Assembly: GCF_018919395.1 (NCBI RefSeq)
Contig: NZ_JAHLME010000002.1
Span: 186,001 to 250,000 of the forward strand
DNA: 64,000 bases
Direction of reading: 5' to 3'
Source of the DNA: Geomonas azotofigens
GTDB lineage: Bacteria; Desulfobacterota; Desulfuromonadia; Geobacterales; Geobacteraceae
Part shown: positions 11,999 to 27,800 of the stretch, piece after piece
Numbering within the stretch: the stretch's first letter is position 1
Layout of the letters: the number at the start of each line of letters is the position of its first letter
Made by a program: the position numbers and the translations under genes
The notes under the pieces: generated by a model
The model's database searches: none
What the model was told of the DNA's origin: nothing
What the model saw: the letters and a program-made list of their open reading frames with translations, nothing else

Positions 11999-12006
11999 GG
12001 TGTACC

Positions 12007-12030
12007 AAGGGGAGCCGGCCGGCTCCCCTT
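12007..12030. terminator. Bidirectional terminator between convergent genes
   Basis: A perfect 24-bp palindrome with 12-bp arms (first arm AAGGGGAGCCGG at 12007-12018) lies 9 bp after the flavoprotein stop and 26 bp from the stop of the convergent lipoprotein gene. T/A tracts flank it only weakly. Confidence 0.7.
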
Positions 12031-12055
12031 TCCCCCATCGGGAGTCAAGCCGTTG

Positions 12056-13273: not shown

Positions 13274-13324
13274 GCCGCCCCTCCCCTGTATATATTTTCG
13301 CTTGCAGCCCCACCCCTGCCCGCA

Positions 13325-16300
13325 CTAGGCCGGCGGTGCCAGGGATCCGACGATGATGCGCAGGATCAGCACAGCGTCTCCTATGTCTATGCTCCAGTCG
13401 GGGGCGGACGCGCCCCCCACCAGGGGGGCCAGGTCCCCCGAGACCAGGAAGCCGTCCAACTGCGGGCGCATGCCGACTGAGACCTGCAGGGCCAGCAGGG
13501 CGTCGCTTATGTCGGTCTTTCCGTCGGCGTTCAGGTCGCCCGTCGGTGTGGCGTAAATGACCCTCCTGGTGACAACCGTGGCTCCACCAGCCTCGTTAGT
13601 GGCAGTCACCGTCACGGGATAGAGCCCTTTGGTTGTGAGCGGGATGGTCTGACTGAACGCGCCATCCACCACCGGCGGGGTATAGAACTGTCCGTTGACC
13701 GCTATGGTGACCCTTACCGACGTCACCGTGTCCGTTGCCGTCCCCGACACCACAAGAGAGTTCTGCCCCGGCCGCACGTCGCCCGACGGTGAGGTCAGGG
13801 TCAGGGTGGGCGCCTCCGTCTCGTGGGTCACGGTGATGACGCGGGTCGACGAGAGGTTCGCCTGCGTGGTGGCCGTGAGCGTAATGGTGGTTACCCCGAC
13901 TGCCAGGTTGTCCAAGAGCTGGCTGAACAGCGAGCCGGCAAGCACAGAGGCGGTGAAGTCGCGGGCGCCGGAAGGGCCGGAGACATGGATGCCAAGGATG
14001 CAATCGTGATCGACGCTCCCGGTGATCATGAGCTGTGACTTGTTGGTCTTGTATTCGTCAGACGCCGGTGCGGTGAGCGCGATGACCGGCACTGCCTGAT
14101 CGAGGACCACGCTGCTCGTCGAGTGGCTCGCGTTCCCCGCAAGGTCGATGGCAACCACCGTTATCACGTTGGTGCCGGAGGTAAGTTCGATGGTTTTGCT
14201 GAAGTTCCCCTCGGCGTCTACCGCCAGACTGGTGCCGTTTAACTGCAGCGACTGGACCCCGCTCAGGGGGTCGACGACCCTGCCTGAAACCGTAAACTGC
14301 TGCATGCTCGTGTAGCTGTGATCGGGGGGGAGAGCGACGGAGAGCGACGGCGAGGCCAGATCCCAGATCAGCGTGGCATCGCTGGTAGAAACGTTGCCGG
14401 CCTGGTCGATGCTGGTAAGCCTGAGCAGATAGGTGCCCTCCTGGTCCGCGCTCACCGTGGTGGCGAGAGAGTCCGGAGAACCGAAGGAAACCGTGCCCGG
14501 CCCGCTTGCCTGGCTCCAGCGGAAGGTAAGCTGCGTGGTGCCGCTGGCAAAGCCGTACTGGGTAAAGGTGGCATTATGGGCGCTGCTGGGCCCTGCGCTT
14601 ACCAGCGGCAGTTGCGTGGTCCAAAGCAGCGCCAGCGTGTCACTGGAGCGGTTACCGGCCGCATCGGTTGCGGTGATGCGCAGCGAGTAGCTACCGTCCG
14701 CGGTGGCCGATATCTGCGGCGACAAGGCGGTCCCATCCGAAAAGGCGATGTTGCCCGGCCCGGAAAGCTGCTCCCAACGGTAGGTGAGCGGGGTTGCGTC
14801 GCTGGCCGTGGCGGCCGGGATGAAGGGCGCATTGACGACGCGGCTGCCGCCTGCCACTACCTGGGGCGCCGTGGTATCCCAGGTAAAGGAGACCTCGATC
14901 ATGCTGCTGTTCCCGGCGGCGTCGGTCGCGGCGAATTGCAGCAGGTAGACGCCGTCCTGGTCGGCGCTGGCGTTCGTAGTAGCGCTCCCCGGCGCTCCGA
15001 GGGTCACCGTTCCCGGCCCGGATAGCTGCTGCCACCGGTAGACCATCGGCGTGGCATCGCTTGCGTTTACCGTGAGGTCTACCGCGGTAGCGGTAGTGAC
15101 AGGCACCGGCTGGACCAGATAAGGCGCGGTGGTGTCCCAGGTTACGGCGACGTCGCCGGTGCTGCCGTTGCCGGCCGCATCGACGGCGGTAAGCCGGAGC
15201 ACGTAGGCGCCGTCCCGGTCGATGGCAACCGTGGAGCTTGCTCCTGACGGCGGATCGAAGGTGACGGAACCGGGCCCGCTGACCTTGCTCCAGGCAAGGG
15301 TGGCTGCAGTGGCGTCGGCGACGTTTCCGCTTTGCAGGAAGGGGGCGTTGGCTGTGCGCCCCACTCCTGCGCTGACCGCGGGACGTGTGGTGTCCCATAC
15401 CATGGAGCAGTCCGAGGAGGCGCTGTTGCCGGCCGCGTCGGTTGCGGTGAGCCGCAGGGTATAGCTGCCGTCTACGCTGGCGGAAATGTTCGGTGTCAGG
15501 GCAGCGGGGTCGGAGAAGGCGACCGTCCCGGGCCCGGAAAGTTGCTGCCAGCTGTAAGTGGAGGGATTCGCGTCGCTTACGGCTGCAGCGGGGGTGTAAG
15601 GGGCGTTACTCACCCGGCTCCCCCCCGCGTCCACCTTAGGCAAAGTGGTGTCCCAGGTGAGGGTGACATCGGCAGACGCGCTGTTCAAGGCTTCGTCGAT
15701 GGCGGTAAGGCGCACCAGGTAGACCCCGTCAAGATCCATGGAGACCGTGGTGCTGGCCGAGGCGGGAGAGCTAAAGACGACCGTCCCCGGTCCGCTCACC
15801 TTGCTCCAGGAAAGCAAGGTAGCCGTCGCGTCAGACACGCTCCCGGTCTGGCTGAACGCGCTGTTTGCGGCATGCGCCGGGCCGGCACTGACCGTCGGGG
15901 ACGTGGTGTCCCATACCAGTGCAACATCGGATGAGGCGCTGTTTCCCGCGGCGTCGGTCGCGGTCAGACGGATCAGGTAACTGCCGTCCCTGTCCATGGA
16001 TACCGTCGTGCCGGCGGCGGACGGTGAGCCGAAGCTGACCGTCCCCGGCCCGCTCACCTTGCTCCAGGAAAGCGTGGTGGACGTCGCGTCGGATACGGTC
16101 CCAGTCTGGGTGAAGGCGATCCCCGCGGTGCGCCCTGTTCCGGCCCCGACTGCCGGCAGCGTCGTATCCCAGACGATGATGACTTCGCCGTAGGCCCTAT
16201 TGCCGCCGCCGTCGGTTGCAGTCAGCCGGAGCGTATAGCTTCCGTCCTTATCCATAGATATCGTCGTGCTGGCACTGGCGGAGGAACCGAAACTAACCGT

Positions 16301-19300
16301 GCCCGGCCCGCTCTCCTGGCTCCAGGAAAGCGTGATTCCGGTGGCGTCGGACACGCTCCCTGTTTGGGTGAAGGCGCTGTTGGCCGTGCGTGTCGTCCCC
16401 GCGCTGACCGTCGGGAGCGTGGTGTCCCAGATTAAGGTAACGTCCGCGGAGGCGCTGTTCCCTGAAGCGTCGGTTGCCGTCAGGCGGAGCAGGTAGCTGC
16501 CGTCCCTATCCATCGATACCGTCGTGCCGGCGGCTGACGGGGAACCGAAGCTCACCGTCCCCGGTCCGCTCACCTTGCTCCAGGAAAGGGTCGTAGCGGT
16601 TGCGTCCGAGACGCTCCCGGTCTGAACGAATGGGGCGTTGGCCGTGCGGCTGGTACCTGCACTTACGGATGGGGGGGTGCTGTCCCATACCACCGTCACA
16701 TCCGAAGAGGCGCCGTTTCCCGCGGCGTCGGTTGCCGTCAGGCGAAGCAGGTAGCTGCCGTCCTTATCCATCGAAACTGCCGTGCTGGCGGCCGACGGGG
16801 AGCCGAAGCTCACCGTCCCCGGCCCGCTCACCCTACTCCAGGAAAGCGTCGTCGCCGTGGCGTCGGAGACGCTCCCCACCTGGGTGAAGGCGCTCCCGGC
16901 GGTGCGGGGAGTCCCCGCGCTGACCGTGGGGAGCGTGGTGTCCCAGATTAAGGTAACTTCTGAAGAGGCGCTGTTCCCTGAAGCGTCGGTTGCCGTCAGG
17001 CGGAGCAGGTAGCTGCCGTCCTTATCCATAGACACCGTTGTGCTGGCGGCGGACGGGGAATTGATGGCGACGGCACCCGGTCCGCTCACCTTGCTCCAGG
17101 AAAGGGTCGTAGCGGTTGCGTCCGAGACGCTCCCGGTCTGAACGAATGGAGCGTTGGCCGTGCGGCTGGTACCTGCACTTACGGATGGGGGGGTGCTGTC
17201 CCATACCACCGTCACATCGGAAGAGGCGCCGTTTCCCGCGGCGTCGGTTGCCGTCAGGCGAAGCAGGTAGCTGCCGTCCTGATCCATCGAAACCGTCGTG
17301 GTGGCGGCCGACGGGGAGCCGAAGCTCACCGTCCCCGGTCCGCTCACCCTGCTCCAGGAAAGCGTCGTCGCCGTGGCGTCGGAAACGCTCCCCACCTGGG
17401 TGAAGGCGCTCCCGGCGGTGCGCCCCGCCCCGGCGCTCACCGCGGGGAGGGTCGTGTCCCACACCACCGTCACATCGGAAGAGGCGCCGTTTCCCGCGGC
17501 GTCGGTTGCCGTCAGGCGGAGCAGGTAGCTGCCGTCCTGATCCATCGAAACCGTCGTGCTGGCGGCCGACGGGGAGCCGAAGCTCACCGCACCCGGTCCG
17601 CTCACCCTGCTCCAGGAAAGCGTCGTCGCCGTGGCGTCGGAGACGCTCCCCACCTGGGTGAAGGCGCTCCCGGCGGTGCGCCCCGCCCCGGCGCTCACTG
17701 CGGGGAGGGTCGTGTCCCACACCACCGTCACATCGGAAGAGGCGCCGTTTCCCGCGGCGTCGGTCGCCGTCAGGCGGAGCAGGTAGCTGCCGTCCTGATC
17801 CATCGAAACCGTCGTGCTGGCGGCCGACGGCGAGCCGAAGCTCACCGTCCCCGGCCCGCTCACCTTGCTCCAGGAAAGAGTCGTCGCCGTGGCATCGGAG
17901 ACGCTCCCCACCTGGGTGAAAGCGCTCCCGGCGGTGCGCCCCGCCCCGGCGCTCACCGCGGGAAGGGTCGTGTCCCACACCACCGTCACATCCGAAGAGG
18001 CGCCGTTTCCCGCGGCGTCGGTTGCCGTCAGGCGAAGCAGGTAGCTGCCGTCCTGATCCATCGAAACCGTCGTGCTGGCGGCCGACGGGGAGCCGAAGCT
18101 CACCGTCCCCGGCCCGCTCACCCTACTCCAGGAAAGCGTCGTCGCCGTGGCGTCGGAGACGCTCCCCACCTGGGTGAAGGCGCTCCCGGCGGTGCGCCCC
18201 GCCCCGGCGCTCACCGCGGGGAGGGTCGTGTCCCAAACAAGGGAGGTATCCGCGAAGGCGACGTTGCCCGCGGCGTCGGTAGCGGTCAGGCGCAGCACGT
18301 AGCCGCCGTCCTTGGTGGCGACTACGTCGGTCTGCAGGGAGTTTGGAGCGCCAAAGGTGATGTTGCCGCTCCCTTGCACCATGCTCCACTGCACTGCGAC
18401 CGCTGAGCCGTCGGTGGCCGTGGCGGTCTGCAGGTAGCTCGCCGAGCGCGTTTGCCCGGGGGCCACCGACACAGCGGGAGGCGCCGTGTCGATGGTCCAG
18501 CTCCAGCTGGCCGCGGCGCCGATGTTGCCGGTGAGGTCGACGCCCCTCACCGCGAAGGTGTGCCGGCCGTCCGGGCTCCCGGAAAGGTCGAGCGCCACCG
18601 GCGAGTCACAGGAGGCGAATGCCCCCGCGTCCAGGCTGCAGGCGAAACTTGAGCCGGCCTCGTCGCTGGTGAAGGTGAAGGTGGCGCTTCGCAACACCGT
18701 CGGATCAGCAGGATGCCCGGTGATGCTGGCCGTCGGCGCGTCCGTGTCGATGATCACGATCTTCGAGGCGCTCAGGTTGGCCTGGGCGCTGACCGGCGGA
18801 TCGGTCGCCTGGTTGCCGGCGCCGTCGAGGAGTGCGCCGCTGACGGAGGCGACATCAAGCCCCGCGCTCATCTCTCCGGCTGCGACGGTGTAGACCGCGG
18901 TGCAACTCGTCACCCCCGCCAGGGCGCCGCAGCTCGCATTGCCGCCGCTCGACAGGGTGAGGGTCAGCCCCGAGGAGGTAACGGCTTCGCTGAACGAGAG
19001 CGTGAGGGGGATCAGGGCCCCTGCGCCGTAGCGTCCCGCCGCAGCTGTCGTCGTGACCGCCGTTATCGCCGGAGCCGACGTGTCCAGGAGCAGGGTCCGC
19101 ACCACCGTCGCCTGGTTCCCGGCCTGGTCCGCGCAGGTTACCGTCACAGGGTAGGAGCCGTCCCCCCCCAGCGAAAGCTGCTGGCTGAAGGAACCGCCAG
19201 CCACGCTGGGGGAGTAGTTCTGCCCCCCCGCCGCGATGGTCACCGAAACGGCGCTGTCGGGATCGCTCGCACTCCCGGCGATGACCGGTGTCCTGCTGTT

Positions 19301-20197
19301 GGTGCTCTTATCCTGGGGTGGCTGGGTCACCTGCAGGTTCGGCATGCTGCCGTCGAACAGGACGCTTCGCTTGGCGACCGCGCTGTTTCCAGCCAGGTCG
19401 GTCGCGGTGACGGTGATGGTGTTGAGCCCGTGTTCGAGGGTGACGGCGGCGGAAAACAAGGTGCCGTCCTGCTCGGCACCCTGGGGGCTCCCGGCGCCGA
19501 GGGTGACCGTCACCACCGATTCCTCGTCGACGTTGCCGGCGACCGTGACGCCCCCCTGCGAGGTGACGACGTTGTCGGCCGGCGAGGTGATGGTAAGGTG
19601 CGGTGCCGACAGGTCGAGCCGGATCACCCTGCTGTCGGTCACGCTGTTGCCCACCTGGTCGGTGGCAACCACGGCTATGGTGTTGGGGCCGCTGACGAGG
19701 GTGACCGCGCCGCTGAAGGCGCCGTCGGGCTGGACCTGAACGGCGTCACCGTTTATGGTCACCACTGCCGGAGCGCTCGCCGCGTCGGTCGCACTACCTG
19801 CGATGTTCAGAAGGGAAACGTTGGTGACGGCTCCGCCGGGGAGGGTGGAGACGGTAAGGACGGGGGCGTTCGCGTCGACGTAGATCTCGGCGCTCGCAGA
19901 GGCCGGATCGTCCTTATCGCTGGTAGCCGTGATGGTATGACTGCCATCGGTCAGGCCCGAAACGACTGCTCCCCAGGCGGCCGGAGAGGGATAGCTGACC
20001 GGACCGACCACCGCTCCCGGGACGTCGAGGGTGACGGTTGCCCCCTCCGCACAGGTGCCGGTGACCGTGAGGCTCGCGTTCAAATAGGGAGAAGAAAGGG
20101 GATCGATGGTCACTGCGGCCCACGCTGAGACAGGGGTCGCAAAAAGGAAGGCCAGCATCAGCGCTCCCGCCAGCATACGCACGTAGCCGTAGTGCAT
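13325..20197 (-). CDS. Giant secreted Ig-like repeat protein with dockerin-like C terminus, 2290 aa
   Basis: A Sec signal peptide (cleavage near 'VSAWA') is followed by several Ig-like domains of about 90 residues (about 30-570) built on 'VT.T..DLAGN' motifs. Then come 16 copies of an ~86-residue PKD/REJ-like unit (about 575-1949), typified by 'LSWSKVSGPGTVSFGSPSA' and 'GSYLLRLTATDAAGN'. More Ig-like domains precede a C-terminal dockerin-type pair, 'GDLNADGKTDISDALLALQ' and 'SIDIGDAVLILRIIVG', of which the first keeps the Ca-binding D-x-N-x-D-G pattern. The architecture fits a long extracellular adhesin stalk. The gene follows the fapE-like gene and precedes the cohesin-like lipoprotein. The ribosome site AGGAGGG supports the ATG at 20197. 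Units 2-5 are almost identical, indicating recent amplification. Confidence 0.85.
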   Translation of the reverse strand: MHYGYVRMLAGALMLAFLFATPVSAWAAVTIDPLSSPYLNASLTVTGTCAEGATVTLDVPGAVVGPVSYPSPAAWGAVVSGLTDGSHTITATSDKDDPASASAEIYVDANAPVLTVSTLPGGAVTNVSLLNIAGSATDAASAPAVVTINGDAVQVQPDGAFSGAVTLVSGPNTIAVVATDQVGNSVTDSRVIRLDLSAPHLTITSPADNVVTSQGGVTVAGNVDEESVVTVTLGAGSPQGAEQDGTLFSAAVTLEHGLNTITVTATDLAGNSAVAKRSVLFDGSMPNLQVTQPPQDKSTNSRTPVIAGSASDPDSAVSVTIAAGGQNYSPSVAGGSFSQQLSLGGDGSYPVTVTCADQAGNQATVVRTLLLDTSAPAITAVTTTAAAGRYGAGALIPLTLSFSEAVTSSGLTLTLSSGGNASCGALAGVTSCTAVYTVAAGEMSAGLDVASVSGALLDGAGNQATDPPVSAQANLSASKIVIIDTDAPTASITGHPADPTVLRSATFTFTSDEAGSSFACSLDAGAFASCDSPVALDLSGSPDGRHTFAVRGVDLTGNIGAAASWSWTIDTAPPAVSVAPGQTRSASYLQTATATDGSAVAVQWSMVQGSGNITFGAPNSLQTDVVATKDGGYVLRLTATDAAGNVAFADTSLVWDTTLPAVSAGAGRTAGSAFTQVGSVSDATATTLSWSRVSGPGTVSFGSPSAASTTVSMDQDGSYLLRLTATDAAGNGASSDVTVVWDTTLPAVSAGAGRTAGSAFTQVGSVSDATATTLSWSKVSGPGTVSFGSPSAASTTVSMDQDGSYLLRLTATDAAGNGASSDVTVVWDTTLPAVSAGAGRTAGSAFTQVGSVSDATATTLSWSRVSGPGAVSFGSPSAASTTVSMDQDGSYLLRLTATDAAGNGASSDVTVVWDTTLPAVSAGAGRTAGSAFTQVGSVSDATATTLSWSRVSGPGTVSFGSPSAATTTVSMDQDGSYLLRLTATDAAGNGASSDVTVVWDSTPPSVSAGTSRTANAPFVQTGSVSDATATTLSWSKVSGPGAVAINSPSAASTTVSMDKDGSYLLRLTATDASGNSASSEVTLIWDTTLPTVSAGTPRTAGSAFTQVGSVSDATATTLSWSRVSGPGTVSFGSPSAASTAVSMDKDGSYLLRLTATDAAGNGASSDVTVVWDSTPPSVSAGTSRTANAPFVQTGSVSDATATTLSWSKVSGPGTVSFGSPSAAGTTVSMDRDGSYLLRLTATDASGNSASADVTLIWDTTLPTVSAGTTRTANSAFTQTGSVSDATGITLSWSQESGPGTVSFGSSASASTTISMDKDGSYTLRLTATDGGGNRAYGEVIIVWDTTLPAVGAGTGRTAGIAFTQTGTVSDATSTTLSWSKVSGPGTVSFGSPSAAGTTVSMDRDGSYLIRLTATDAAGNSASSDVALVWDTTSPTVSAGPAHAANSAFSQTGSVSDATATLLSWSKVSGPGTVVFSSPASASTTVSMDLDGVYLVRLTAIDEALNSASADVTLTWDTTLPKVDAGGSRVSNAPYTPAAAVSDANPSTYSWQQLSGPGTVAFSDPAALTPNISASVDGSYTLRLTATDAAGNSASSDCSMVWDTTRPAVSAGVGRTANAPFLQSGNVADATAATLAWSKVSGPGSVTFDPPSGASSTVAIDRDGAYVLRLTAVDAAGNGSTGDVAVTWDTTAPYLVQPVPVTTATAVDLTVNASDATPMVYRWQQLSGPGTVTLGAPGSATTNASADQDGVYLLQFAATDAAGNSSMIEVSFTWDTTAPQVVAGGSRVVNAPFIPAATASDATPLTYRWEQLSGPGNIAFSDGTALSPQISATADGSYSLRITATDAAGNRSSDTLALLWTTQLPLVSAGPSSAHNATFTQYGFASGTTQLTFRWSQASGPGTVSFGSPDSLATTVSADQEGTYLLRLTSIDQAGNVSTSDATLIWDLASPSLSVALPPDHSYTSMQQFTVSGRVVDPLSGVQSLQLNGTSLAVDAEGNFSKTIELTSGTNVITVVAIDLAGNASHSTSSVVLDQAVPVIALTAPASDEYKTNKSQLMITGSVDHDCILGIHVSGPSGARDFTASVLAGSLFSQLLDNLAVGVTTITLTATTQANLSSTRVITVTHETEAPTLTLTSPSGDVRPGQNSLVVSGTATDTVTSVRVTIAVNGQFYTPPVVDGAFSQTIPLTTKGLYPVTVTATNEAGGATVVTRRVIYATPTGDLNADGKTDISDALLALQVSVGMRPQLDGFLVSGDLAPLVGGASAPDWSIDIGDAVLILRIIVGSLAPPA
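14350..18475 (-). repeat. 258-bp coding tandem repeat, 16 units, inside the Ig-repeat gene
   Basis: The period is 258 bp (86 codons). Units in 17040-18230 are near-identical at DNA level, including synonymous positions. A higher-order 516-bp duplication is also visible: the stretch around 16590-16740 recurs at 17106-17260. Units outside this core (14350-16000) have diverged at most positions. The pattern indicates homogenisation by unequal crossing-over or slippage at the N-terminal side of the array. Confidence 0.9.
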
Positions 20198-20249
20198 CTT
20201 GTCAACCCTCCTGTCCCGGAAATCGCATCGAGGCGTACGGCAAAAACAG

Positions 20250-20357
20250 GAAAACTACGCGACCTGCGCACTGTTTGGTGCAGGACTGCGTAGCAAGCTG
20301 CATCGGCAGCCTTACGCTGAACGGGTCCCGCGCGGGCCGTTTAGCGCAGGGTGCCGC
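20250..20357 (-). promoter_or_regulatory. Strongly structured leader between the fapE-like gene and the giant repeat gene
   Basis: The 218-bp gap 20198-20415 holds nested inverted repeats. CTACGC (from 20253) pairs with GCGTAG (to 20293), enclosing CCTGC/GCAGG. A larger stem joins GGCAGCC (20305) to GGTGCC (to 20355), enclosing CGCTGAACGG/CCGTTTAGCG and CCCGCGCGGG. No T run follows, so this could be an attenuator, an RNA-processing site separating highly expressed cargo from the giant gene, or an unrecognised riboswitch. It does not match the c-di-GMP GEMM consensus as far as I can see. Confidence 0.4.
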
Positions 20358-20415
20358 AATAATAGCTTGGTACGGCGCCGGTCCGGCCGGTTCGCACCGG
20401 CAGGAGGCAAGACTA

Positions 20416-20898
20416 CTACCTTACGGCGTTGATCATCTGCTGCCGCAGCGCCGACTGAAGGCTTATGTCGCGGAAGATCGACATGTTCGCGAGCTGGGCG
20501 TTGATGGCCAGATGGTTGCTGATCACCTGCCTGTCGAGCGTGTTCTGGATTACCGCCAACCCTCCGGGAAGCGAACCCGTTCCCTGCGCAGCGTGGAAGA
20601 GGTTGCTCCCCTCCGGCCCGATCTGCACCAGGGTGGTCCCCGCGCCGCTTTTCATGGCGCCGGCGGATGAGAAGTTGAAACTGCTGGATGCGCTCAGGAC
20701 GCCGTTGACGTAGACCGCGCGCTCGATGCCGAACGAGACGAGGAGGCCGTCCTGGCCGAAAAAGCCGCCCCGGCTTGCCGCGAGCTCAGCCTCGGCCACG
20801 GCGGGCGCCGCCATCGTTTCTTGCGCCGGTTCCGCCCCGGCCCGGGAAGCGAACAGCAGCGCCACGGACGTTACCAGGATGATCCCTTTGGTTTTCAT
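20416..20898 (-). CDS. FapE-like exported protein with double-glycine-type motif
   Basis: A 160-aa Sec-exported protein (signal to about residue 22). Directly after it, residues 34-45 read 'VAEAELAASRGG', which aligns with the bacteriocin leader consensus LSxxELxxIxGG recognised by C39 peptidases. The mature part is rich in small and polar residues. It ends with 'GGLAVIQNTLDRQVIS' and 'HLAINAQLANM', a motif shared with the two other fibre-type proteins of the locus. Its position after fapB- and fapD-like genes matches fapE in the Pseudomonas fap order. The FapE name is by position and character, not by clear sequence identity. AAAGGGG precedes the ATG. Confidence 0.6.
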   Translation of the reverse strand: MKTKGIILVTSVALLFASRAGAEPAQETMAAPAVAEAELAASRGGFFGQDGLLVSFGIERAVYVNGVLSASSSFNFSSAGAMKSGAGTTLVQIGPEGSNLFHAAQGTGSLPGGLAVIQNTLDRQVISNHLAINAQLANMSIFRDISLQSALRQQMINAVR

Positions 20899-20927
20899 GG
20901 TGTTACCCCTTTAAGCGTACCGACCGC

Positions 20928-21629
20928 TCAAAAACCTCTGCGTGCCGTCAGGAAAAGAGTCGGATCCAGCAACTGTGCAGTCGTAAGCGGTTCCACCCCC
21001 GCCAACATCCTCCTTGCCGGCCACTCGCCCGGTTCGTTGAAGTGCCGGCTCGCCAGGTCCTTGTGACTGCGCACCAGGAACACCAGGCCATTCCACCACC
21101 GCTCGAACTCACCGCGCGGCACCGTTCGTGCGCCCTGCGCCGGGTCCCCCAGAAGCACTTCGCCTTTGGTGACCCCCTTCAAAACGATGAAGTGCCGGTA
21201 CCCCCGGATGTTGACCAAGGCGATGGCGGGAATCCCCACCTTTTCCAGTTTGTCCAGCGTGATGCGGTAGCCGTCGGCCTGGTAGCCGCGCCGCTCCAGG
21301 TACTTTTTCATGTCGAGCAGGGAAAACCCCTCGCGGCGGATCTTTTCCTTGTCGCCGTTTTCGAACATGGCGACGAACACTTGGTCCTCACTGACCCGGT
21401 CCTCGTAGTGGTAGGTCAAAAGGGTGGCGAGGGCCGCCGAACCGCAGCTGAAATCGTACTGCTGCTGCACGGTCCTTTTGAAGCGGAGCTCCTTCACGCT
21501 GGTCACGGGGACGTTGACGTTGCCAAGGAACGCGCCGGGCACGGCGACGCTTCCTGCCATGCCCGGCGTGGGCGCCACCTGGAGCACGGCGGCAAAAAGC
21601 AGCGCAGTCTTGATAGCGGAACGTGGCAT
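20928..21629 (-). CDS. fapD: Sec-exported C39 family cysteine peptidase (FapD-like)
   Basis: A 233-aa protein with an N-terminal signal peptide and a stand-alone peptidase C39 domain. The oxyanion glutamine and nucleophile appear in 'QQQYDFSCGSAALATLLTYH' (Cys about residue 62), the catalytic histidine in 'GYRHFIVLKG' and the aspartate in 'VLLGDPAQG'. Unlike ABC-transporter-linked C39 domains it has no membrane or ATPase domains, so it should work in the periplasm. FapD of Pseudomonas functional-amyloid operons is a C39 protein of about this size. It lies between fapB- and fapE-like genes, 11 bp after the former. Likely substrates are the exported neighbours carrying leader-like motifs. GGAGG ribosome site. 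Confidence 0.82.
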   Translation of the reverse strand: MPRSAIKTALLFAAVLQVAPTPGMAGSVAVPGAFLGNVNVPVTSVKELRFKRTVQQQYDFSCGSAALATLLTYHYEDRVSEDQVFVAMFENGDKEKIRREGFSLLDMKKYLERRGYQADGYRITLDKLEKVGIPAIALVNIRGYRHFIVLKGVTKGEVLLGDPAQGARTVPRGEFERWWNGLVFLVRSHKDLASRHFNEPGEWPARRMLAGVEPLTTAQLLDPTLFLTARRGF

Positions 21630-21640
21630 GGCGCCTCCGG

Positions 21641-21994
21641 TCAGCGTACGCTCAGGTTGAGGATGAAAGAACTCTGGATCACGTTCTGATTGCCCGTGTT
21701 CTGGATAATGGTCGCGACCCCGTTGGTGGCGCCGAACGCGTTGTCGCCGACCACGTTGGTACCGGTTCCGGACGAAGTGAGCAGGTTGCTCGCCACAGTG
21801 GCGCTCGACTCGGAACTGTTGATCGTGTTCACCATCTCTTCGACCTGCACCCCTTGTCGCCCGGTCTGCTGGGCCATGGCGCCCTCGGCAAGCGGCGCGC
21901 CCAGATCAGCCTGCCCGATTTCCGAGGCGACAACCGGCGGGGCGAAGGCCATGCCAAGCATCACTGCAAAGGTAACGATGTGCTTGCGTATCAT
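21641..21994 (-). CDS. FapB-like minor amyloid subunit candidate
   Basis: A 117-aa exported protein with signal peptide (to about residue 24). Residues about 35-46 read 'LAEGAMAQQTGR', in register with the leader-like motif of its neighbours though the central E-L is A-M. The mature region is rich in Ser, Thr, Asn and Gly and ends 'GVATIIQNTGNQNVIQSSF', the QN-containing motif seen in the FapC- and FapE-like proteins. Size, composition and place between the fapC- and fapD-like genes fit a FapB-type nucleator. It has no cysteine. AAAGGAAA ribosome site. Confidence 0.6.
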   Translation of the reverse strand: MIRKHIVTFAVMLGMAFAPPVVASEIGQADLGAPLAEGAMAQQTGRQGVQVEEMVNTINSSESSATVASNLLTSSGTGTNVVGDNAFGATNGVATIIQNTGNQNVIQSSFILNLSVR

Positions 21995-22099
21995 GGCCGT
22001 TTCCTTTCTTGGGCCGCGATGAGCCCGTCGGGTACGCAGTACGGGCCCCGGTTCGTACCGGGGCCCGCTCCTCTATGTGGCGGCAGGTCCGCCCCCCTG

Positions 22100-23119
22100 T
22101 TACTGCCCCGGGTTCAGGCTGAGGTTCGACTGAACGTTTATCGAAGGCTGGATCAGGGAATTCATGCCGCTGTTCTGGGTCACGGTGGTGATCCCCGCTG
22201 CGCTCTGGAAAGCGGAGCCGGAGATGTCGTTGTTGCCGGTGGTGATGTAGGCGCGCTTGCCAAGGTCGACGGAGTTGGCGGAAACGGCGCCCTCGAGCTG
22301 GGTGCTCGACACGGCTACGGCCACGTCGCCGATGGTGATGCTGAGATCATGGCTGTCGGTCGCGCTTTCGGACTTGTTGACCGACACGGCATTGTAGGAG
22401 TCCTTGATTTCGGTCTCGTTGTTGGTCTCGGTCTCGGTTTTGCTGAAGTTGCGGTTATCGCTTCTAGTCACGTTGGTGGTGTTGAAGGATTCCTCGTTCT
22501 CGGTCTTTGAGTTGCCCGAGGCGACGGTATTGCCGGACTCCTTGTTGGAAACCGAGTTATCGGTGTTGTTGGAATCCTTGGTGTTGACCGAGTTGTCGGT
22601 CGGGGTGATGGTCACCGTCTTGGTTGCGCTGTTGCCCGAGGCGATCGAGTTGCCGGACTCCTTGTTGACATTCACGTTCTCGGTCTCGGTGGAGGTGTTG
22701 TACGATCCCTTGGTGTTGACCGAGTTGTCGGTCGGGGTGATGGTCACCGTCTTGGTGGCGCTGTTGCCCGAAGCGATCGAGTTGCCGGACTCCTTGTTGA
22801 GGTTCAGGTTCTCCGTCTCGGTCTTCGTGAAGGTGTTGAACGATTCCTTGTTGGTGGTGGAGTTGTCGGTCGGGGTGACGGTCACCGTCTTGGTGGCGGT
22901 GTTGCCCGAGGCGATGGTATTGCCGTTTTCCTTATTGACGGAGACGCTGTCGGTAGAGCTCAAGGTATTGCTGTTGCTGGTGCTGCTGGTTGCGCTGCTG
23001 CCATCCACGGCGACGGCAGCGCCCAAAGCGCCGTCGTTGGAAGCATCTATGGCGTAGGCGAAGCTGGAAAGGGATACCACTGCTGCTGCGGCCAGGATGG
23101 CGACGATACGTGATTTCAT
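22100..23119 (-). CDS. FapC-like major amyloid subunit candidate with Asn/Thr/Ser repeats
   Basis: A 339-aa exported protein (signal peptide ending near 'SFAYA'). The mature chain is low-complexity and polar, with four imperfect ~45-residue repeats centred on 'NKESGNSIASGNSATKTVT' and linkers such as 'PTDNSVNTKGSYNT'. The C-terminal part (about 250-339) is less repetitive and ends 'GITTVTQNSGMNSLIQPSIN', resembling the ends of the FapB- and FapE-like proteins. No cysteine is present. Repeats separated by linkers and rich in Asn and Gly are the FapC plan. I start at 23119, preceded by AGGAGGA; an upstream in-frame ATG at 23149 lacks a site. A weak -24/-12-like GG-N10-GC lies at 23146-23159. 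Confidence 0.65.
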   Translation of the reverse strand: MKSRIVAILAAAAVVSLSSFAYAIDASNDGALGAAVAVDGSSATSSTSNSNTLSSTDSVSVNKENGNTIASGNTATKTVTVTPTDNSTTNKESFNTFTKTETENLNLNKESGNSIASGNSATKTVTITPTDNSVNTKGSYNTSTETENVNVNKESGNSIASGNSATKTVTITPTDNSVNTKDSNNTDNSVSNKESGNTVASGNSKTENEESFNTTNVTRSDNRNFSKTETETNNETEIKDSYNAVSVNKSESATDSHDLSITIGDVAVAVSSTQLEGAVSANSVDLGKRAYITTGNNDISGSAFQSAAGITTVTQNSGMNSLIQPSINVQSNLSLNPGQ

Positions 23120-23232
23120 GACTTCCTCCTTTTCGTGTGTTGACTGCATTGGAATGGCCTACTAAGTGCACCTCTTCCCGCCGGGCCATGGCCCCGGCGT
23201 AAAACCTTCTGCTGCATCTTCTATGAGACATC

Positions 23233-23574
23233 TCAGTGCCGCTGCTGTGACCGGGCGACCGCCCTCCCCTCGTCCCACAGCTTCACGTCGCTTAGCTGCA
23301 GCGAGGGTTGCAGTGGCGCTCCACCCAGCAGGTAACGCCCGTGCACCGCGTTCAGTTCCTCCGCCGGCAACGGCGCCCCCTCCAGTTGGTTGAAACCCTG
23401 CTGCTTGGCGGCAAACGCTCCCCTTGCGGCTCCCCCTTGCGAAACTGGGGCCCGTTCCTCACGGGGGGGCGATGCGACCTGGTCCGTCGTGGCCGCAGAA
23501 CCGGTCGGCGTCATCTCCGCGCGGGCCGCTGCCGTCGGCAGCAGCAGGGCAATGATCAGCATGAATCGTTTCAT
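23233..23574 (-). CDS. Small exported protein with leader-like motif, first gene of the amyloid operon
   Basis: A 113-aa Sec-exported protein of no family known to me. Its signal ends near 'AAARA'. Residues 69-80 read 'LPAEELNAVHGR', matching LSxxELxxIxGG at L, E-L, the hydrophobic position and the first glycine; a true GG follows five residues later. GGAGG with 5-nt spacing supports the ATG at 23574 rather than the GTG at 23580. It is first downstream of a near-consensus sigma-54 promoter and upstream of the fapC-like gene. By position it could be a FapA-like chaperone, but sequence alone does not show that. Confidence 0.6.
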   Translation of the reverse strand: MKRFMLIIALLLPTAAARAEMTPTGSAATTDQVASPPREERAPVSQGGAARGAFAAKQQGFNQLEGAPLPAEELNAVHGRYLLGGAPLQPSLQLSDVKLWDEGRAVARSQQRH

Positions 23575-23617
23575 GATCACCTCCGCTACGTACCTCGTGA
23601 ATCCACACCCATGTATA

Positions 23618-23632
23618 GCACGCTCCGTGCCA
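23618..23632 (-). promoter_or_regulatory. Sigma-54 (-24/-12) promoter of the amyloid operon
   Basis: The minus strand reads TGGCACGGAGCGTGC. This matches TGGCAC-N5-TTGC with one mismatch and has the invariant GG and GC exactly 10 nt apart. The expected start of transcription is near 23606, giving a 5' leader of about 32 nt before the ATG at 23574. The gene immediately upstream encodes a sigma-54 activator. Confidence 0.8.
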
Positions 23633-23709
23633 GGAATTTTCAGACGAGATTACGGCTACTTACGGGGCAAAGCGGGCACGGTTTTGTAAAAGGGAGTAGG
23701 ACACTCTTT

Positions 23710-23766
23710 TTTACACTACGTGTGGTTAATACGTAATTTCAGGGACTTGAGTGTAAAGGGTGTAAG
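23710..23766 (-). promoter_or_regulatory. TTTACACT-type boxes, putative activator-binding region
   Basis: TTTACACT (23710-23717), AGTGTAAA (23750-23757) and GTGTAAG (23760-23766) lie 80-135 bp upstream of the -24/-12 promoter, the usual distance for a sigma-54 enhancer site. The same octamer in both orientations recurs upstream of the fapF-like gene at 26660-26696. Confidence 0.55.
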
Positions 23767-23784
23767 GGGGGGGCGCGCCCCCCC
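23767..23784 (-). terminator. GC-only hairpin after the regulator gene
   Basis: A perfect palindrome GGGGGGGCGCGCCCCCCC lies 41 bp beyond the regulator stop. No T run follows, so termination is uncertain; it may be a pause or insulator between the regulator and the enhancer boxes. Confidence 0.35.
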
Positions 23785-23824
23785 GGAGGGAGTGGGGACC
23801 GGCGGAAGAGCCGGGCCGATCAGC

Positions 23825-25399
23825 TCAGGAAAGGGAGAAGGGGATGGGCGCCGCGTTGTGGGAGCTGCCGGGCTCGGTGTGGGGGGGATCGGTGTGGGGG
23901 ACGCCGGGATCGGTGTGGGGGACGCCGGGGTCGGTGTGGGGGCCGTTGGGGTCGATGCCGTGGCGACGCATGGACGCGTAAAGGGTGGGCCTGCTTACCC
24001 CGAGCACGCGTGCGGCACGGGTGACGCAGTAGCCGGTTTGCTCAAGAACATCGATGATCTGTTCGCGGCTGTCAGCCAGTGCGTAGGGCTGCTTGTTGCG
24101 CACGAAGGGGGCGACCCTCGCCAGCTCCAAATCCTCGGGCTCGATCGCCTTGCCGCTGGCCATCACCAGTGCACGCCGCACCTTGTTGATAAGCTCCCTC
24201 ACGTTGCCGGGCCAGTCGTAGGCGCTGATTGCGGCAAGCGCCGCGGGAGAGAAGCCTTGCAGTCCGCTTTGTTCCATGGCGCCGAAACGCTGGAAGAAGT
24301 ACTTGGCCAGAAGGATGATGTCGTCTCCGCGCTCGCGCAAGGGGGGGAGCGTTATGCTGATCGTGTTCAGACGGTAATAGAGGTCGCGTCGAAAGGTACC
24401 CTGGTCCACCATGGCGGCCAGGTTGCAGTTGGTCGCTGCGATGATGCGGACGTCCACGTGGGTGCCGCGCTTACCCCCGACACGCTCCACGGTGTGGTCT
24501 TCGAGAAAGCGCAAAAGCTTGGCCTGGAGCGGCGCGGGGAGTTCGCCGATCTCGTCCAGGAATATGGTGCCCCGGTCGGCCAACTCGAAGCGTCCCGCCT
24601 TCCTCGCGTAGGCGCCGGTGAAGGCTCCTTTTTCGTAACCGAACAGCTCGCTCTCCAGCAACTGTTCGGGGATGGCCGCGCAGTTCACCACTACCATCAA
24701 CTGGTCCCGGCGCTGACTCCTTTCGTGAATGGCCTGGGCGGTAAGTTCCTTGCCGGTGCCGCTTTCCCCGAGGATCAGGATGTTCATGTCGGTGCAGGCG
24801 GCCTTGCGTATGGTGGCAAAGACTTCCCGCAGGGCCGGGGCGGTCCCGACGAATTCGTCGTTGCCGCAACCGGGGGATGCCCCGATGATGCTCTGGTCAA
24901 CGGTGGTTAGCAGGCGCAGCAGAAGTCCCCCGTCGCAGCGGGAAAGTCTGCTCTCCAGTCGGGCCAGGAACGTGGCATGCAGGTGGCGCTCCAGGTATCC
25001 GCTATCCATGACGTCCAGAGGAGTACGGCAGGCGCCGCACAGGGTGCGATCGTTCTGCAACTCCCCGCCGCAGTACGGGCAGCTGCCGTTTACCGGGGTC
25101 TGCTTCCTGAGAAAGGACCAGATCGCGTCATACGCCTGCTTTTCAGGGAAATAGAGCCTGAACACCGTGCTCTTGTGCGAACTGCGCAACGGGTGCGCGG
25201 GGAGCTCCACCCGGGTGTGGGGGGGGAGGTTGATGTTGAGGGTGCATCCCTCCTCCGAGATGGGCCCCATGCCGCTCACCATGGCGCTGCTCAGGCTGAG
25301 CTCGTTCACAACGACCGCCTCTTCCACGCGGCGCTTGCCTGAAAAATAGACGGCACGGCCGCTCAAGCGGGTCTTGATGCGTATGTCCATGCGCGGCAT
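23825..25399 (-). CDS. PilZ-like/zinc-ribbon/sigma-54 activator (AAA+, Fis HTH)
   Basis: A 524-aa regulator. Residues 1-105 look like a PilZ domain: an R-x3-R start ('RIKTR'), then 'NELSLSSA' at the usual D/N-x-S-x2-G place and a beta-rich body, suggesting c-di-GMP input. A four-cysteine ribbon ('CPYCGG', 'CGAC') follows at about 110-135. The AAA+ domain has Walker A 'GESGTGKE', the sigma-54 loop 'GAFTGA' and an R-finger region, and 'VTRAARVLGVSRPTLY' is a Fis-type HTH. The tail carries the repeat 'PHTDPGVPHTDPGVPHTDP' and is probably disordered. There is no phosphoreceiver domain. The gene sits between the fapF-like and amyloid-subunit genes, directly upstream of a -24/-12 promoter it is likely to drive. 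GGAGAA precedes the ATG. Confidence 0.85.
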   Translation of the reverse strand: MPRMDIRIKTRLSGRAVYFSGKRRVEEAVVVNELSLSSAMVSGMGPISEEGCTLNINLPPHTRVELPAHPLRSSHKSTVFRLYFPEKQAYDAIWSFLRKQTPVNGSCPYCGGELQNDRTLCGACRTPLDVMDSGYLERHLHATFLARLESRLSRCDGGLLLRLLTTVDQSIIGASPGCGNDEFVGTAPALREVFATIRKAACTDMNILILGESGTGKELTAQAIHERSQRRDQLMVVVNCAAIPEQLLESELFGYEKGAFTGAYARKAGRFELADRGTIFLDEIGELPAPLQAKLLRFLEDHTVERVGGKRGTHVDVRIIAATNCNLAAMVDQGTFRRDLYYRLNTISITLPPLRERGDDIILLAKYFFQRFGAMEQSGLQGFSPAALAAISAYDWPGNVRELINKVRRALVMASGKAIEPEDLELARVAPFVRNKQPYALADSREQIIDVLEQTGYCVTRAARVLGVSRPTLYASMRRHGIDPNGPHTDPGVPHTDPGVPHTDPPHTEPGSSHNAAPIPFSLS

Positions 25400-25504
25400 T
25401 ACTGTTTCTCCTGTTTCCCGGCTGGCGTGTCGGCCATCTCGCCGCCTTCGCTCGCCTCCGCCTCTGCCGCGACAGCCGGCGATCCCCCCCGCGCTGTCCC
25501 ACGG

Positions 25505-26566
25505 TCAGAGGTTGAAGGGTACCTTTACGGTCAGTTGCACGTCGGGCGCCGCCTGGGTGAGTCCCGCGCCCAGGGAGAACACGTAGCTCATCCTGTCGCT
25601 CGCCCGGTAGGAAAAGCCGATGAGCAGAGTCCCCAACTGGGTTACCATGGTCCCGGGAAGGTAGCTCTCGTTGCGCTTCACCCGGCCGACGATGCTGTGA
25701 TCGTAGCCGAGGCTGATCGAGGTCTTGTCGTTGAGGGCGAAACCCAGGCCGAAATTGGCGTCCACGATATCCCCGGGATCGACGTCGCCGACGCCGGGGA
25801 TGCTGCGGGGAATGTTGGCCATGTAGCTCACGCTGCCGAAGAAGACGGCCGGATCGGAGGGAACGATGAGGGTAAGTCCGGGCTGGATGCCCCAAAAGCC
25901 CGAACCGGTCGGGAGCCGGGTGTAAAAGCCGGTGGCCTGGTCCACCGGCATTTCGAAGGGGTCCTTGCCCGTGTTCGACTTCACCCGCAACCCGAGCAGC
26001 CAGTAGGACGGTCCGGTGCGGTTCAGCTGGTAGCGCAGGCCGAATTCAATGTCCCCGAGATCGTTGCCGTCGGCCGTGAAAACGCTCGTGACGTTTTGTC
26101 CGCCGGTGCCGGCCGAGTCGGTCGAGGTGGACTCGGTCCGATAGACGTAAGGGATCTTGACCTCCCCCTCCAGCCTGCTGGTAAGCCCGTAGCGCAGCCC
26201 CAGCGCTCCGACGAGGGTGTTGCTTTCAACGTTCTTGATGTTGATGAGGCCGACCGTGATGGAAGGGATTATGGTATAGCCGACCACCGAGACGAGGTTG
26301 GTCGAAGAGTGGGAGTACTGGAAGGAGGGCTCGAAGACGAGCTGGCCGCGCGGAGTGAGCGCCCCCCCCTGTTCGAAAAGCGCGGCGCCGTCCACGGCCG
26401 GCTTCTCGTCCTGAGGCTTGACCCCGACAGGTTGGGCTGGAAGCTGGCTCCCCGCGCCCTTCCCCTCCGGTGCGGCGCGCTGTTCCTCGCTCATTGCCTC
26501 GGTAGAGGTTGACAGCAGCACTGCGAAAGCAATCAGTAATGACAGAGATCTCACTAGTCGACTCAT
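25505..26566 (-). CDS. fapF: FapF-like outer-membrane amyloid export porin
   Basis: A 353-aa protein with signal peptide, then a short polar/proline-rich linker (about 25-60), then a beta-barrel. The segment 'ALTPRGQLVFEPSFQYSHSS' followed by 'VVGYTIIPSITVGLI' and 'LGLRYGLTSRLEGEVKIPYV' is highly characteristic of FapF, the pore that secretes Fap subunits. The C terminus ends in F-x-L ('KVPFNL'), as for outer-membrane barrels. Compared with Pseudomonas FapF the N-terminal coiled-coil/plug region is short. It is first in the locus; the regulator follows after 105 bp. The 442-bp upstream region contains TTTACACT boxes. Confidence 0.85.
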   Translation of the reverse strand: MSRLVRSLSLLIAFAVLLSTSTEAMSEEQRAAPEGKGAGSQLPAQPVGVKPQDEKPAVDGAALFEQGGALTPRGQLVFEPSFQYSHSSTNLVSVVGYTIIPSITVGLINIKNVESNTLVGALGLRYGLTSRLEGEVKIPYVYRTESTSTDSAGTGGQNVTSVFTADGNDLGDIEFGLRYQLNRTGPSYWLLGLRVKSNTGKDPFEMPVDQATGFYTRLPTGSGFWGIQPGLTLIVPSDPAVFFGSVSYMANIPRSIPGVGDVDPGDIVDANFGLGFALNDKTSISLGYDHSIVGRVKRNESYLPGTMVTQLGTLLIGFSYRASDRMSYVFSLGAGLTQAAPDVQLTVKVPFNL

Positions 26567-26659
26567 AGCATTCCTTTCCTTTGCACAAGTGACCGTCTGC
26601 GAGATATATTTCCATTAATTTATTATATGTCAAGGCACACTGACACATAAAATTCACAC

Positions 26660-26696
26660 TTTACACTTAGTGTAAAGACAGTGTAAATGTGTAAAA
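26660..26696 (-). promoter_or_regulatory. TTTACACT palindrome and direct repeats upstream of the fapF-like gene
   Basis: TTTACACTTAGTGTAAA forms an inverted repeat at 26660-26676, followed by AGTGTAAA (26680-26687) and TGTGTAAAA (26688-26696). The cluster lies 95-130 bp upstream of the fapF-like start in an AT-rich stretch (26590-26780). I could not find a convincing -24/-12 promoter here. A TTGACA occurs at about 26627-26632 on the minus strand, with only a poor -10. The rest of 26567-27008 holds a terminator (26913-26946) and nothing else I can support. Confidence 0.5.
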
Positions 26697-26912
26697 TAGT
26701 AACAGAGACAACAGTAGACACTTCTCTTTCGATGCGAAAAAGCAATCCTGTATGTTAAGTTTTATTGCTTAACATTTTCTTTTTTATCCACCGCCTGTAT
26801 CGTGTCGTCGTGGCGCGAGGTTGGTGGCGTGCGCACAATGCCAGAGGACCGGCACGGGATCCCCCAACGGGGAGCGGGGACGCGCGCAGGCATCCTTTCG
26901 GACGCGGCGCAC

Positions 26913-26946
26913 AAAAAAATCCCGGCGGCCACGCAGGCCGACGGGA
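26913..26946 (-). terminator. Terminator of the TPR gene
   Basis: A stem of about 12 bp (ATCCCGGCGGCC at 26919-26930 with GGCCGACGGGAT at 26936-26947, one mismatch) is followed on the minus strand by seven T (A run at 26913-26919). It lies about 60 bp after the TPR stop codon. Confidence 0.75.
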
Positions 26947-27008
26947 TAAGGGTTTTTTCCGGGAGAAGCGTTACCGGCAATCTCCCGTGTGAAAAAGCGG
27001 CGCCTTCG

Positions 27009-27800
27009 TTACTTCATCTCCTCCTTGAGCCCCTCGATGACCGCCTTGACCTCCGCGATCATCTCCCTTGCCTGCGGCGAGTGTTCCCGCTTCAGGTAGT
27101 TCTCGAAGTGCTTGATGGCGTCCGCGGTGCGGTCCTGGTCGATGCAGATGTTGCCCAGGGTCAGGTAGCTCATGGTGAATTCCGGGTCGAGGCGGATCGC
27201 CTCCAGCGTCTCGCGCTCGGCCGCCTCCAGGTCGTCCATGTCGTAGTAGAGCTCGCCCAGGTTGAAACGGGCGGTGGCGTCGGTGGGGTCGATCTCGATT
27301 CCCTTGTGGTAGGCCGCGATCGCCTTCTCGTTTTCGCCCAGGCCGTAGTAGAGGTCCCCCATGGCGTTCAAGGCGAAGACGTTGCCCGGATCGAGCTCCA
27401 GCGCCCTCTCGAAGGCCTTCAGCGCGTCGTCGGCACGCTCCATGGCGTTGTAGACGAGCCCCATGCTGACGTAGCCGTCGCAATCCTTGGGCTGCAGCTC
27501 GGTCACCTTGCGGTAGCAGGCCAGGGCGTCCTTGTGCTTGCCCGACTCGAAGTAGACGTCGCCCAGCGCGGTCAGGCCGTCCAGGTCCTCCGGCGCCAGC
27601 TCCAGCCCCTTCTTGAGCGCGGCGATGGCGTCATCGACGTGCCCGGCTTCGGAGTACGCCTCGCCGAGGTAGAAGTACCCCTCCGCGTTCTGGGGCTCCA
27701 GCGCGATGCAACCCTTGAATGCCTCGATGGCCTGGGCGTATTCGCCGGACTCCATCTGCGCTATGCCGTTTGCCAGCTTTTCATCAAAAGTTGTTGCCAT
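27009..27800 (-). CDS. Tetratricopeptide repeat protein (seven TPRs)
   Basis: The 263-aa protein consists almost entirely of seven consecutive 34-residue TPRs (about residues 10-245), with typical signatures such as 'AEGYFYLGEAYSEAGHVDDA' and 'ALNAMGDLYYGLGENEKA'. No signal peptide is present, so it is a cytoplasmic scaffold; partner unknown. Three in-frame ATGs occur at 27818, 27806 and 27800. The AGGAGG lies inside the first candidate's codons and has 8-nt spacing to 27800, which I choose. It is divergent from ptsP and has its own terminator. Confidence 0.85.
   Translation of the reverse strand: MATTFDEKLANGIAQMESGEYAQAIEAFKGCIALEPQNAEGYFYLGEAYSEAGHVDDAIAALKKGLELAPEDLDGLTALGDVYFESGKHKDALACYRKVTELQPKDCDGYVSMGLVYNAMERADDALKAFERALELDPGNVFALNAMGDLYYGLGENEKAIAAYHKGIEIDPTDATARFNLGELYYDMDDLEAAERETLEAIRLDPEFTMSYLTLGNICIDQDRTADAIKHFENYLKREHSPQAREMIAEVKAVIEGLKEEMK

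Follow-up and report, generated by a model that had tools for sequence, protein, structure and literature searches.

The 64,000-nucleotide stretch of Geomonas azotofigens DNA analyzed here (contig NZ_JAHLME010000002.1, positions 186,001 to 250,000; hereafter the window) belongs to a 4.97 Mb assembly and carries a cluster of seven minus-strand genes, at 20416..26566, that a first-pass annotation had read as a locus for the functional amyloid Fap. All seven open reading frames (ORFs) are present at these coordinates, and third-position GC content (GC3) is 0.77-0.85 in each. They encode a FapF-like porin, a FapD-like C39 protease, a sigma-54 activator and four further proteins of 115, 349, 117 and 160 amino acids (aa). 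The same set is found again in other genomes, so it is not a product of chance. We consider it likely that the locus belongs to the Fap superfamily as a divergent member, because it combines homologues of FapF and FapD with a divergent FapE, a possible FapA and a weakly FapB-like repeat, alongside a main repeat protein for which no relation to FapC was found. By inspection, the 115-aa frame, which opens with GTG, has a better start at an ATG two codons in, with GGAGG ahead of it, and for the 349-aa frame the 11th codon, immediately ahead of the signal peptide, is the probable start.

Table 1. Features of the Fap-type locus and its surroundings, in window coordinates.
Feature	Position	Strand	Basis or remark
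FapF homologue, outer-membrane secretion porin	25505..26566	-	NCBIfam FapF, PDB FapF
Sigma-54 activator, AAA+ and Fis-type helix-turn-helix	23825..25399	-	Pfam Sigma54_activat 7e-71, HTH_8 2.4e-8
Possible FapA, 115 aa	23233..23580	-	Sec-type signal, leader LPAEELNAVHGR, then LWDE motif
Asn/Ser/Thr-rich repeat protein, 349 aa	22100..23149	-	132-bp unit, 2.6 copies (Tandem Repeats Finder)
B-like subunit, 117 aa	21641..21994	-	Sec-type signal, leader, one C-terminal repeat (GVATIIQNTGNQNVIQ...)
FapD homologue, C39 peptidase	20928..21629	-	Sec-type N-terminus; NCBIfam FapD, Pfam C39
FapE homologue, 160 aa	20416..20898	-	Sec-type signal, leader VAEAELAASRGG, beta-hairpin, linker, C-terminal Gln/Asn (QN) repeat
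Putative C39 leader LPAEELNAVHGR in 115-aa protein	23335..23370	-	Sequence comparison
Putative C39 leader LAEGAMAQQTGR in 117-aa protein	21857..21892	-	Sequence comparison; lacks E-8
Putative C39 (double-glycine) leader VAEAELAASRGG in FapE homologue	20764..20799	-	Sequence comparison
Predicted sigma-54 -24/-12 promoter TGGCACGGAGCGTGCT	23617..23632	-	Upstream of cargo operon
Half-sites TTTACACT and AGTGTAAA, candidate enhancer sites	23709..23757		Upstream of cargo operon
Palindrome TTTACACTAAGTGTAAA, candidate activator site	26660..26676		Upstream of fapF
Giant Ig/PKD-repeat protein, 2290 aa	13325..20197	-	Signal-like N-terminus, weak dockerin-like end (Pfam)
Lipoprotein, 405 aa	12056..13273	-	Lipobox LLSGCG (inspection), no Pfam family
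Presence/absence module, ~15 kb	12000..27009		Empty-site comparison

Comparisons were made across 86 loci: the window, eight unnamed loci and 77 loci from named records, the last being the best 80 of at least 578 FapD relatives found by scanning genomes of named species, less three duplicates (L021, L023 and L025, equal to L016, L013 and L018) that are left out of all 86-locus counts. The named records include a Geobacteraceae metagenome-assembled genome (MAG), Geotalea sp. SG265 and Geomesophilobacter sediminis. One locus, L085, was kept despite its near-identity to L078; the two agree over 9.8 kb and are filed as Anaerolineae and Alphaproteobacteria respectively, probably through a MAG binning error. 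Alignments A2, A3 and A4 (56, 36 and 54 rows) were picked by length from recognized proteins. True Fap systems were sought in 293 genomes from the order to which a Marinobacter locus belongs, and in these six FapD lie above the curated cut-off and several are intermediate, and ten true or intermediate Fap regions were read for comparison. Across the 86 loci FapF is found in 81, the sigma-54 activator in 52 (within 400 bp of FapF in 44), the family of the 117-aa protein, called B-like below, in 64 (directly before FapD in 63), and a FapE-like gene in 59, each time directly after FapD.

The porin matches the NCBIfam FapF model at E 1.2e-44 (152.8 bits, cut-off 700) and the solved FapF chains in the Protein Data Bank (PDB) at E 3.9e-34 to 5.7e-33, and the solved barrel aligns with porin residues 52-351. 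The protease, whose signal peptide was read by inspection, matches NCBIfam FapD at E 9.4e-51 (172.2 bits, cut-off 330) and Pfam C39 at E 9.4e-23. Both genes thus match the models of the families first proposed for them.

The 115-, 349-, 117- and 160-aa proteins match no Pfam or NCBIfam family at a convincing score, and profile comparison was more informative. Fifty-nine FapE-like sequences match 11 true or intermediate FapE over 28 columns (hhalign P 2.9e-7), a span that covers a leader motif and the block behind it, and on this profile-level homology the 160-aa protein is a divergent FapE, as first suggested. NCBIfam FapE does not match the window's own protein and matches 3 of 36 relatives, with a best E of 0.0015. 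The AlphaFold2 model of the 160-aa protein (mean predicted local distance difference test score, pLDDT, 62) places a helix at residues 36-42, just before GG44-45, with a local confidence of about 63-64. A fold search with this model gave no match at E <= 0.001 (best 1.1), and a PDB profile search with the FapE-like alignment gave one chance-level match (E 0.6); the B-like alignment gave none. The 115-aa protein matches the two proteins in the FapA position of L119, a locus with an intermediate Fap system (P 5.9e-5), through a shared leader and LWDE motif, and against a seven-sequence FapA set it reaches P 0.099. [LIV]WDE occurs in 9 of 3482 ORFs of 80-260 aa, and a leader, by a loose pattern, precedes it in eight of those nine; the 115-aa protein is possibly FapA. 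L119 itself holds two tandem Fap gene sets within a single genome, with two each of the FapA-position protein, FapB, repeat protein, FapD and FapE.

The putative structural subunits are hard to recognize by sequence. The 117-aa protein and the 349-aa protein, the latter at its C-terminus, have one repeat in common (P 5.5e-10 between that C-terminus and the B-like family). This repeat resembles the FapB C-terminus at P 2.2e-4, in a run in which two other pairs gave 0.22 and 0.3, so the likeness claimed for the 117-aa protein holds in a weak form. B-like and FapE-like profiles match at P 1e-10, over the leader and the C-terminal repeat. The 349-aa protein, the putative main fiber subunit, had been called FapC-like. 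It was compared with three FapC and then, together with a positive control, with ten. The family reaches P 0.025 against ten FapC, and FapB, as control, reaches 1.7e-12; the FapC assignment is not borne out. Against FapB the 349-aa protein gives P 0.05, and the B-like family gives 0.034 against the ten FapC. The proposed fap plan therefore stands for FapF, FapD and the FapE-like gene, is not supported for FapC and is weak for FapB. None of the 349-, 117-, 160- and 115-aa proteins contains cysteine, as first observed, and this is no departure from known systems, since the Fap of P. putida and P. entomophila is described as lacking Cys motifs (PMC3684753).

The FapE-, A- and B-like proteins carry a short motif behind the Sec-type signal. 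C39 domains recognize Leu(-12)-X3-Glu(-8)-Leu(-7) ahead of a double-glycine site, and in a co-crystal leader positions -4, -7 and -12 occupy a hydrophobic groove of the C39 domain (PMC6363468). The leader of the FapE-like family fits this rule at L-12, E-8, L-7, a hydrophobic -4 and the double glycine, and that of true FapE fits apart from K or R at -1. In the FapE-position proteins the motif sits behind a Sec-type signal. It is found in all 11 true or intermediate FapE, each time with K or R at -1, including those of operons above the curated FapD cut-off, and it runs in register through FapE of Alpha-, Beta- and Gammaproteobacteria and Geobacteraceae. Over 70 FapE-like and true FapE sequences, position -12 is V/L/A/M/I in 70, -8 is E in 43, -7 is L/M in 70, -4 is L/M/I/V in 54, -3 is R and -2 is G in all 70, and -1 is G in 59 and R/K in 11; these counts are descriptive only, because the site was chosen partly by the leader features themselves. 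In the 36-row FapE alignment the only invariant columns are R, G, G and one N.

Of 85 frames directly downstream of FapD, 81 carry the leader pattern; in 200 shuffles the mean is 2.2 and the maximum 8, and among distant ORFs 9 of 489 match. Among the 27 loci without a FapE detected by similarity, 24 have it, by inspection, in a downstream frame (the misses are L020, L030 and L053). A strict canonical pattern occurs in 35 of 59 FapE-like proteins (shuffles 1.8, maximum 6), and in 0 of 19 repeat proteins, 4 of 81 FapF and 3 of 52 activators; written with G[GR], a B-like pattern occurs in 29 of 64 B-like proteins against 0.6 in shuffles. A relaxed pattern was not clearly better than chance (52 of 59 FapE-like against 48 in shuffles) and was set aside. 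As sampled, from the best 80 of at least 578 relatives, this conservation is valid for near FapD relatives and for the 11 true or intermediate FapE. These leaders are probably short tags that FapD cuts. In three loci (L033, L034 and L035) a membrane helix at the N-terminus and a long stretch of coiled coil come, on inspection, before the FapE-like leader, so that a FapD cut there would free FapE from a membrane anchor. Separately, the genome of L016 holds a second, more distant FapD/FapF pair (L020), preceded by two small exported proteins with the leader-like sequences LTDQLLDAITAG and LSDEEMDLVTAG.

Several points count against these readings. On Fap membership, the porin and protease score far under the NCBIfam equivalog cut-offs, and for that reason we call them homologues and not same-function equivalogs. 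The segment of the porin from signal peptide to barrel is short and Pro/Gly-rich and shows no obvious coiled coil (by inspection only; a crude heptad score was discarded, as the signal peptide itself scores), and in Pseudomonas the N-terminal coiled coil of FapF was reported to be vital for secreting FapC (PMC6173800). To these we add the missing FapC relation and the gene order (F, activator, A-like, 349, 117, D, E), which differs from fapABCDEF. On the leader, two of the three copies in the window end in Arg at -1, and published C39 sites are GG, GA or GS. We considered whether K/R at -1 in true FapE is paired with an acidic FapD pocket; some acidic columns differ, and the idea was dropped because, within the window, FapE has RGG but the 117-aa protein has TGR. 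The strict pattern occurs in none of the 11 true FapE and in 3 of 64 B-like proteins (shuffles 1.1), and it also appears, unexplained, in the N-terminal 190 aa of 11 of the 86 FapD themselves (shuffles 2.1, maximum 6). The B-like leaders are the less regular ones: a loose pattern is found in 73 of 85 frames upstream of FapD, where shuffles average 17.9 (maximum 26), and it is also found in 123 of 489 distant ORFs. Finally, the downstream pattern was written after the FapE-like sequences had been read.

The regulatory arrangement is consistent with a Fap-type locus. The predicted promoter TGGCACGGAGCGTGCT lies upstream of the 115-aa gene, its end 42 bp from the ATG and 36 bp from the GTG, and is the sole site with at most one mismatch in the 64 kb. 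By motif count alone such sites carry no signal (25 with at most two mismatches, 29.8 expected), and because the count is near expectation only position and conservation can be weighed. Own-family loci have such a site on the operon strand in seven of nine cases (other strand, none of nine), and over all 86 loci one is found there in 35 (other strand, 15). In nine of ten true or intermediate fap operons a site matching at least 9 of 11 positions starts 59-102 bp before the first cargo frame, in a scan with that frame set by hand, the start in L118 estimated and no shuffle control. The candidate palindrome TTTACACTAAGTGTAAA recurs, less perfect, in L015 and L017; none was seen upstream of fapF in L019.

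PilZ and VpsR domains are both linked to cyclic diguanylate (c-di-GMP), and on that account we infer a c-di-GMP input for the activator. Its N-terminus comprises a PilZ-like region and a zinc-ribbon-like segment; PilZ PF07238 does not match it, and is matched only by the activator of the relative L013 (E 2.6e-9). Among the eight other activators scanned, VpsR lies above its cut-off in four (L037, L058, L073 and L113) and below in two (L047 and L119), PilZ is present in that of L013, and L019 has neither. A 21-bp tandem repeat of 2.8 copies (23885-23942) extends the activator's C-terminus by HTDPGVP repeats that are absent from relatives L015 and L017. The cis-encoded regulator had been put forward as a novelty, which two findings rule out. 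Each of the six operons with a FapD above the cut-off has a sigma-54 activator frame at a distance of 68-1465 bp from fapF, and for P. fluorescens PF07 both a -24/-12 promoter of the fap operon and an adjacent activator, BrfA, have been published (PMC9207406).

The fap genes do not come and go alone, and the first-pass annotation had overlooked the giant gene next to them, as it had the leader motifs. In 16 of 19 same-genus genomes the sequence joins from ~11,999 to ~27,010 (a TPR gene) with 93-333 bp between, and the block is carried by the other three; on this comparison it is a gain/loss unit, and because the empty sites span the whole block, the 2290-aa and 405-aa genes are present or absent with the fap genes. 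The giant gene contains a 258-bp repeat of 10.2 copies at 81% match (15694-18312), and its homologues in two same-genus copies encode 1860 and 2462 aa. The wide conservation expected across Desulfuromonadota was not found: FapD searches of 58 related genomes gave a match in 10, strong in 8, with 3 of 19 in the genus itself; a FapE profile run against 297 genomes of the phylum matched one, the window's own. The viral contigs searched held no relative.

This unit bears on the main alternative, in which the core is Fap-derived and the main cargo is not amyloid. FapF and FapD would then export or anchor a non-amyloid surface fiber or an adhesin, in which the giant Ig/PKD protein would do the work and the small proteins would act as adaptors. 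That the giant gene shares the unit favors such a role, as does the occurrence of a FapD/FapF-like pair in the putative pilus system Fil. The FilB and FilC models match the window pair too, at E 7e-32 and 5.2e-8, which is weaker than the FapD and FapF matches and below the Fil models' own cut-offs (110.9 bits against 475 and 32.6 against 630). Six of ten further loci read, all Fil-type (L126-L129, L131 and L132), have the pair followed by a frame of ~541-563 aa, with no leader-bearing protein directly downstream; in L123-L125 no FapD match was recovered. Against it, the window does encode leader-bearing FapE-, B- and A-like cargo in which QN repeats occur. Near FapD, phmmer matches the giant protein in seven of eight own-family loci, though Ig/PKD repeats match easily, and among the 77 named loci, with flanks up to 8 kb, the only match is in L024. 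On balance we find this alternative unlikely.

A second alternative concerns the leader itself, which might serve FapD as a docking or chaperone motif and remain uncut. Some C39-like domains are known to act as non-cutting chaperones in type I systems (PMC5557850). The catalytic residues Q56, C62, H146 and D162 are kept in all 97 aligned FapD, and in Pseudomonas FapD catalytic activity is required for FapC secretion, which the C38A mutant abolishes (PMC5557850). An uncut leader seems to us a somewhat poorer prospect even than non-amyloid cargo. The same study states that the target of FapD remains unclear, that FapE is suspected as a substrate and that Fap proteins lack canonical C39 sequences; no title or abstract opening in the literature searched reports such a FapD leader. 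Export of peptide toxins or bacteriocins, with the double-glycine (GG) leader proteins cut by C39 and released as bioactive peptides, would account for the leaders and for a weak 'mediterrocin' match in 1 of 36 FapE-like proteins (E 0.0091), and is very improbable given the signal peptides, the FapF-type porin, the regulation known from fap, post-leader parts of about 33, 71 and 115 aa, of which the two longer ones contain QN repeats, and no ATP-binding cassette (ABC) exporter family among nine proteins scanned in Pfam.

We favor, as somewhat more probable than not, a two-signal export code in Fap-type systems. A Sec signal would be followed by a leader of the C39 double-glycine type on FapE, FapA and, in a broad non-Pseudomonas branch, the small FapB-like subunit; FapD would read it in the periplasm, Pseudomonas-type FapE would have GR or GK in place of GG, and many FapD/FapF 'false positives' of earlier surveys would be complete divergent Fap systems. 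For the locus itself we hold the following course as likely. The sigma-54 activator, which would sense c-di-GMP or a surface cue via its PilZ-like domain, switches on the cargo operon from its -24/-12 promoter. From there the gene products would enter the periplasm through Sec, judging from signal peptides read by eye. There FapD would dock on the helical leaders that the FapA-, FapB- and FapE-like proteins carry and cut after G-G or G-R, which would clear them to leave through FapF. Once outside, the 117-, 349- and 160-aa proteins may nucleate and build an amyloid-like fiber through their QN-repeat C-termini, and the giant Ig/PKD protein, gained and lost with the operon, may stand beside it.

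Set beside the Pseudomonas fap system (BrfA/RpoN, P. fluorescens PF07), the locus shares the FapD and FapF homologues, the FapE N-terminal block, the possible FapA, the sigma-54 activator near fapF and the -24/-12 site before the cargo operon. It differs in subunits almost unrecognizable by sequence, in the lack of a detected FapC relation, in gene order, in a FapF without an obvious coiled coil, in an activator N-terminus that is PilZ-like and not VpsR-type, in the giant Ig/PKD protein and lipoprotein of the unit and in a FapE with RGG, not RGR or RGK. Like ComA/LahT double-glycine leaders, those described here have a hydrophobic -12, mostly E-8, L-7, a mostly hydrophobic -4, G-2 and G-1; unlike them, they lie behind a Sec-type signal, would serve a protease that is free and periplasmic, are predicted to belong to cargo that exits through a beta-barrel, and may have Arg or Lys at -1. 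The Fil system shares the pair of C39 protease and porin, and in the six Fil loci read nothing directly downstream of the protease bears a leader. Co-localized FapD/FapF homologues are already known from five additional phyla (PMC6173800); the pair here is alike, and FapE-, B- and A-like partners with leaders are now added to it. FapD/FapF pairs were thus widely known before, and the FapE-position leader is the newest point.

For one Geobacter-type genus, these results place a giant surface protein in the Fap unit as well. For the family, they may change how earlier surveys are read. A 2013 survey put the false positives of its FapD and FapF models at 96% and 69% (PMC3792158), and if the export code holds, part of these matches would be Fap-type systems with diverged cargo. 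The locus is valuable chiefly for bringing the probable FapD recognition code to light: the expected FapD cut site is now named to the residue, and the substrate of a protease essential for Fap secretion is directly testable.

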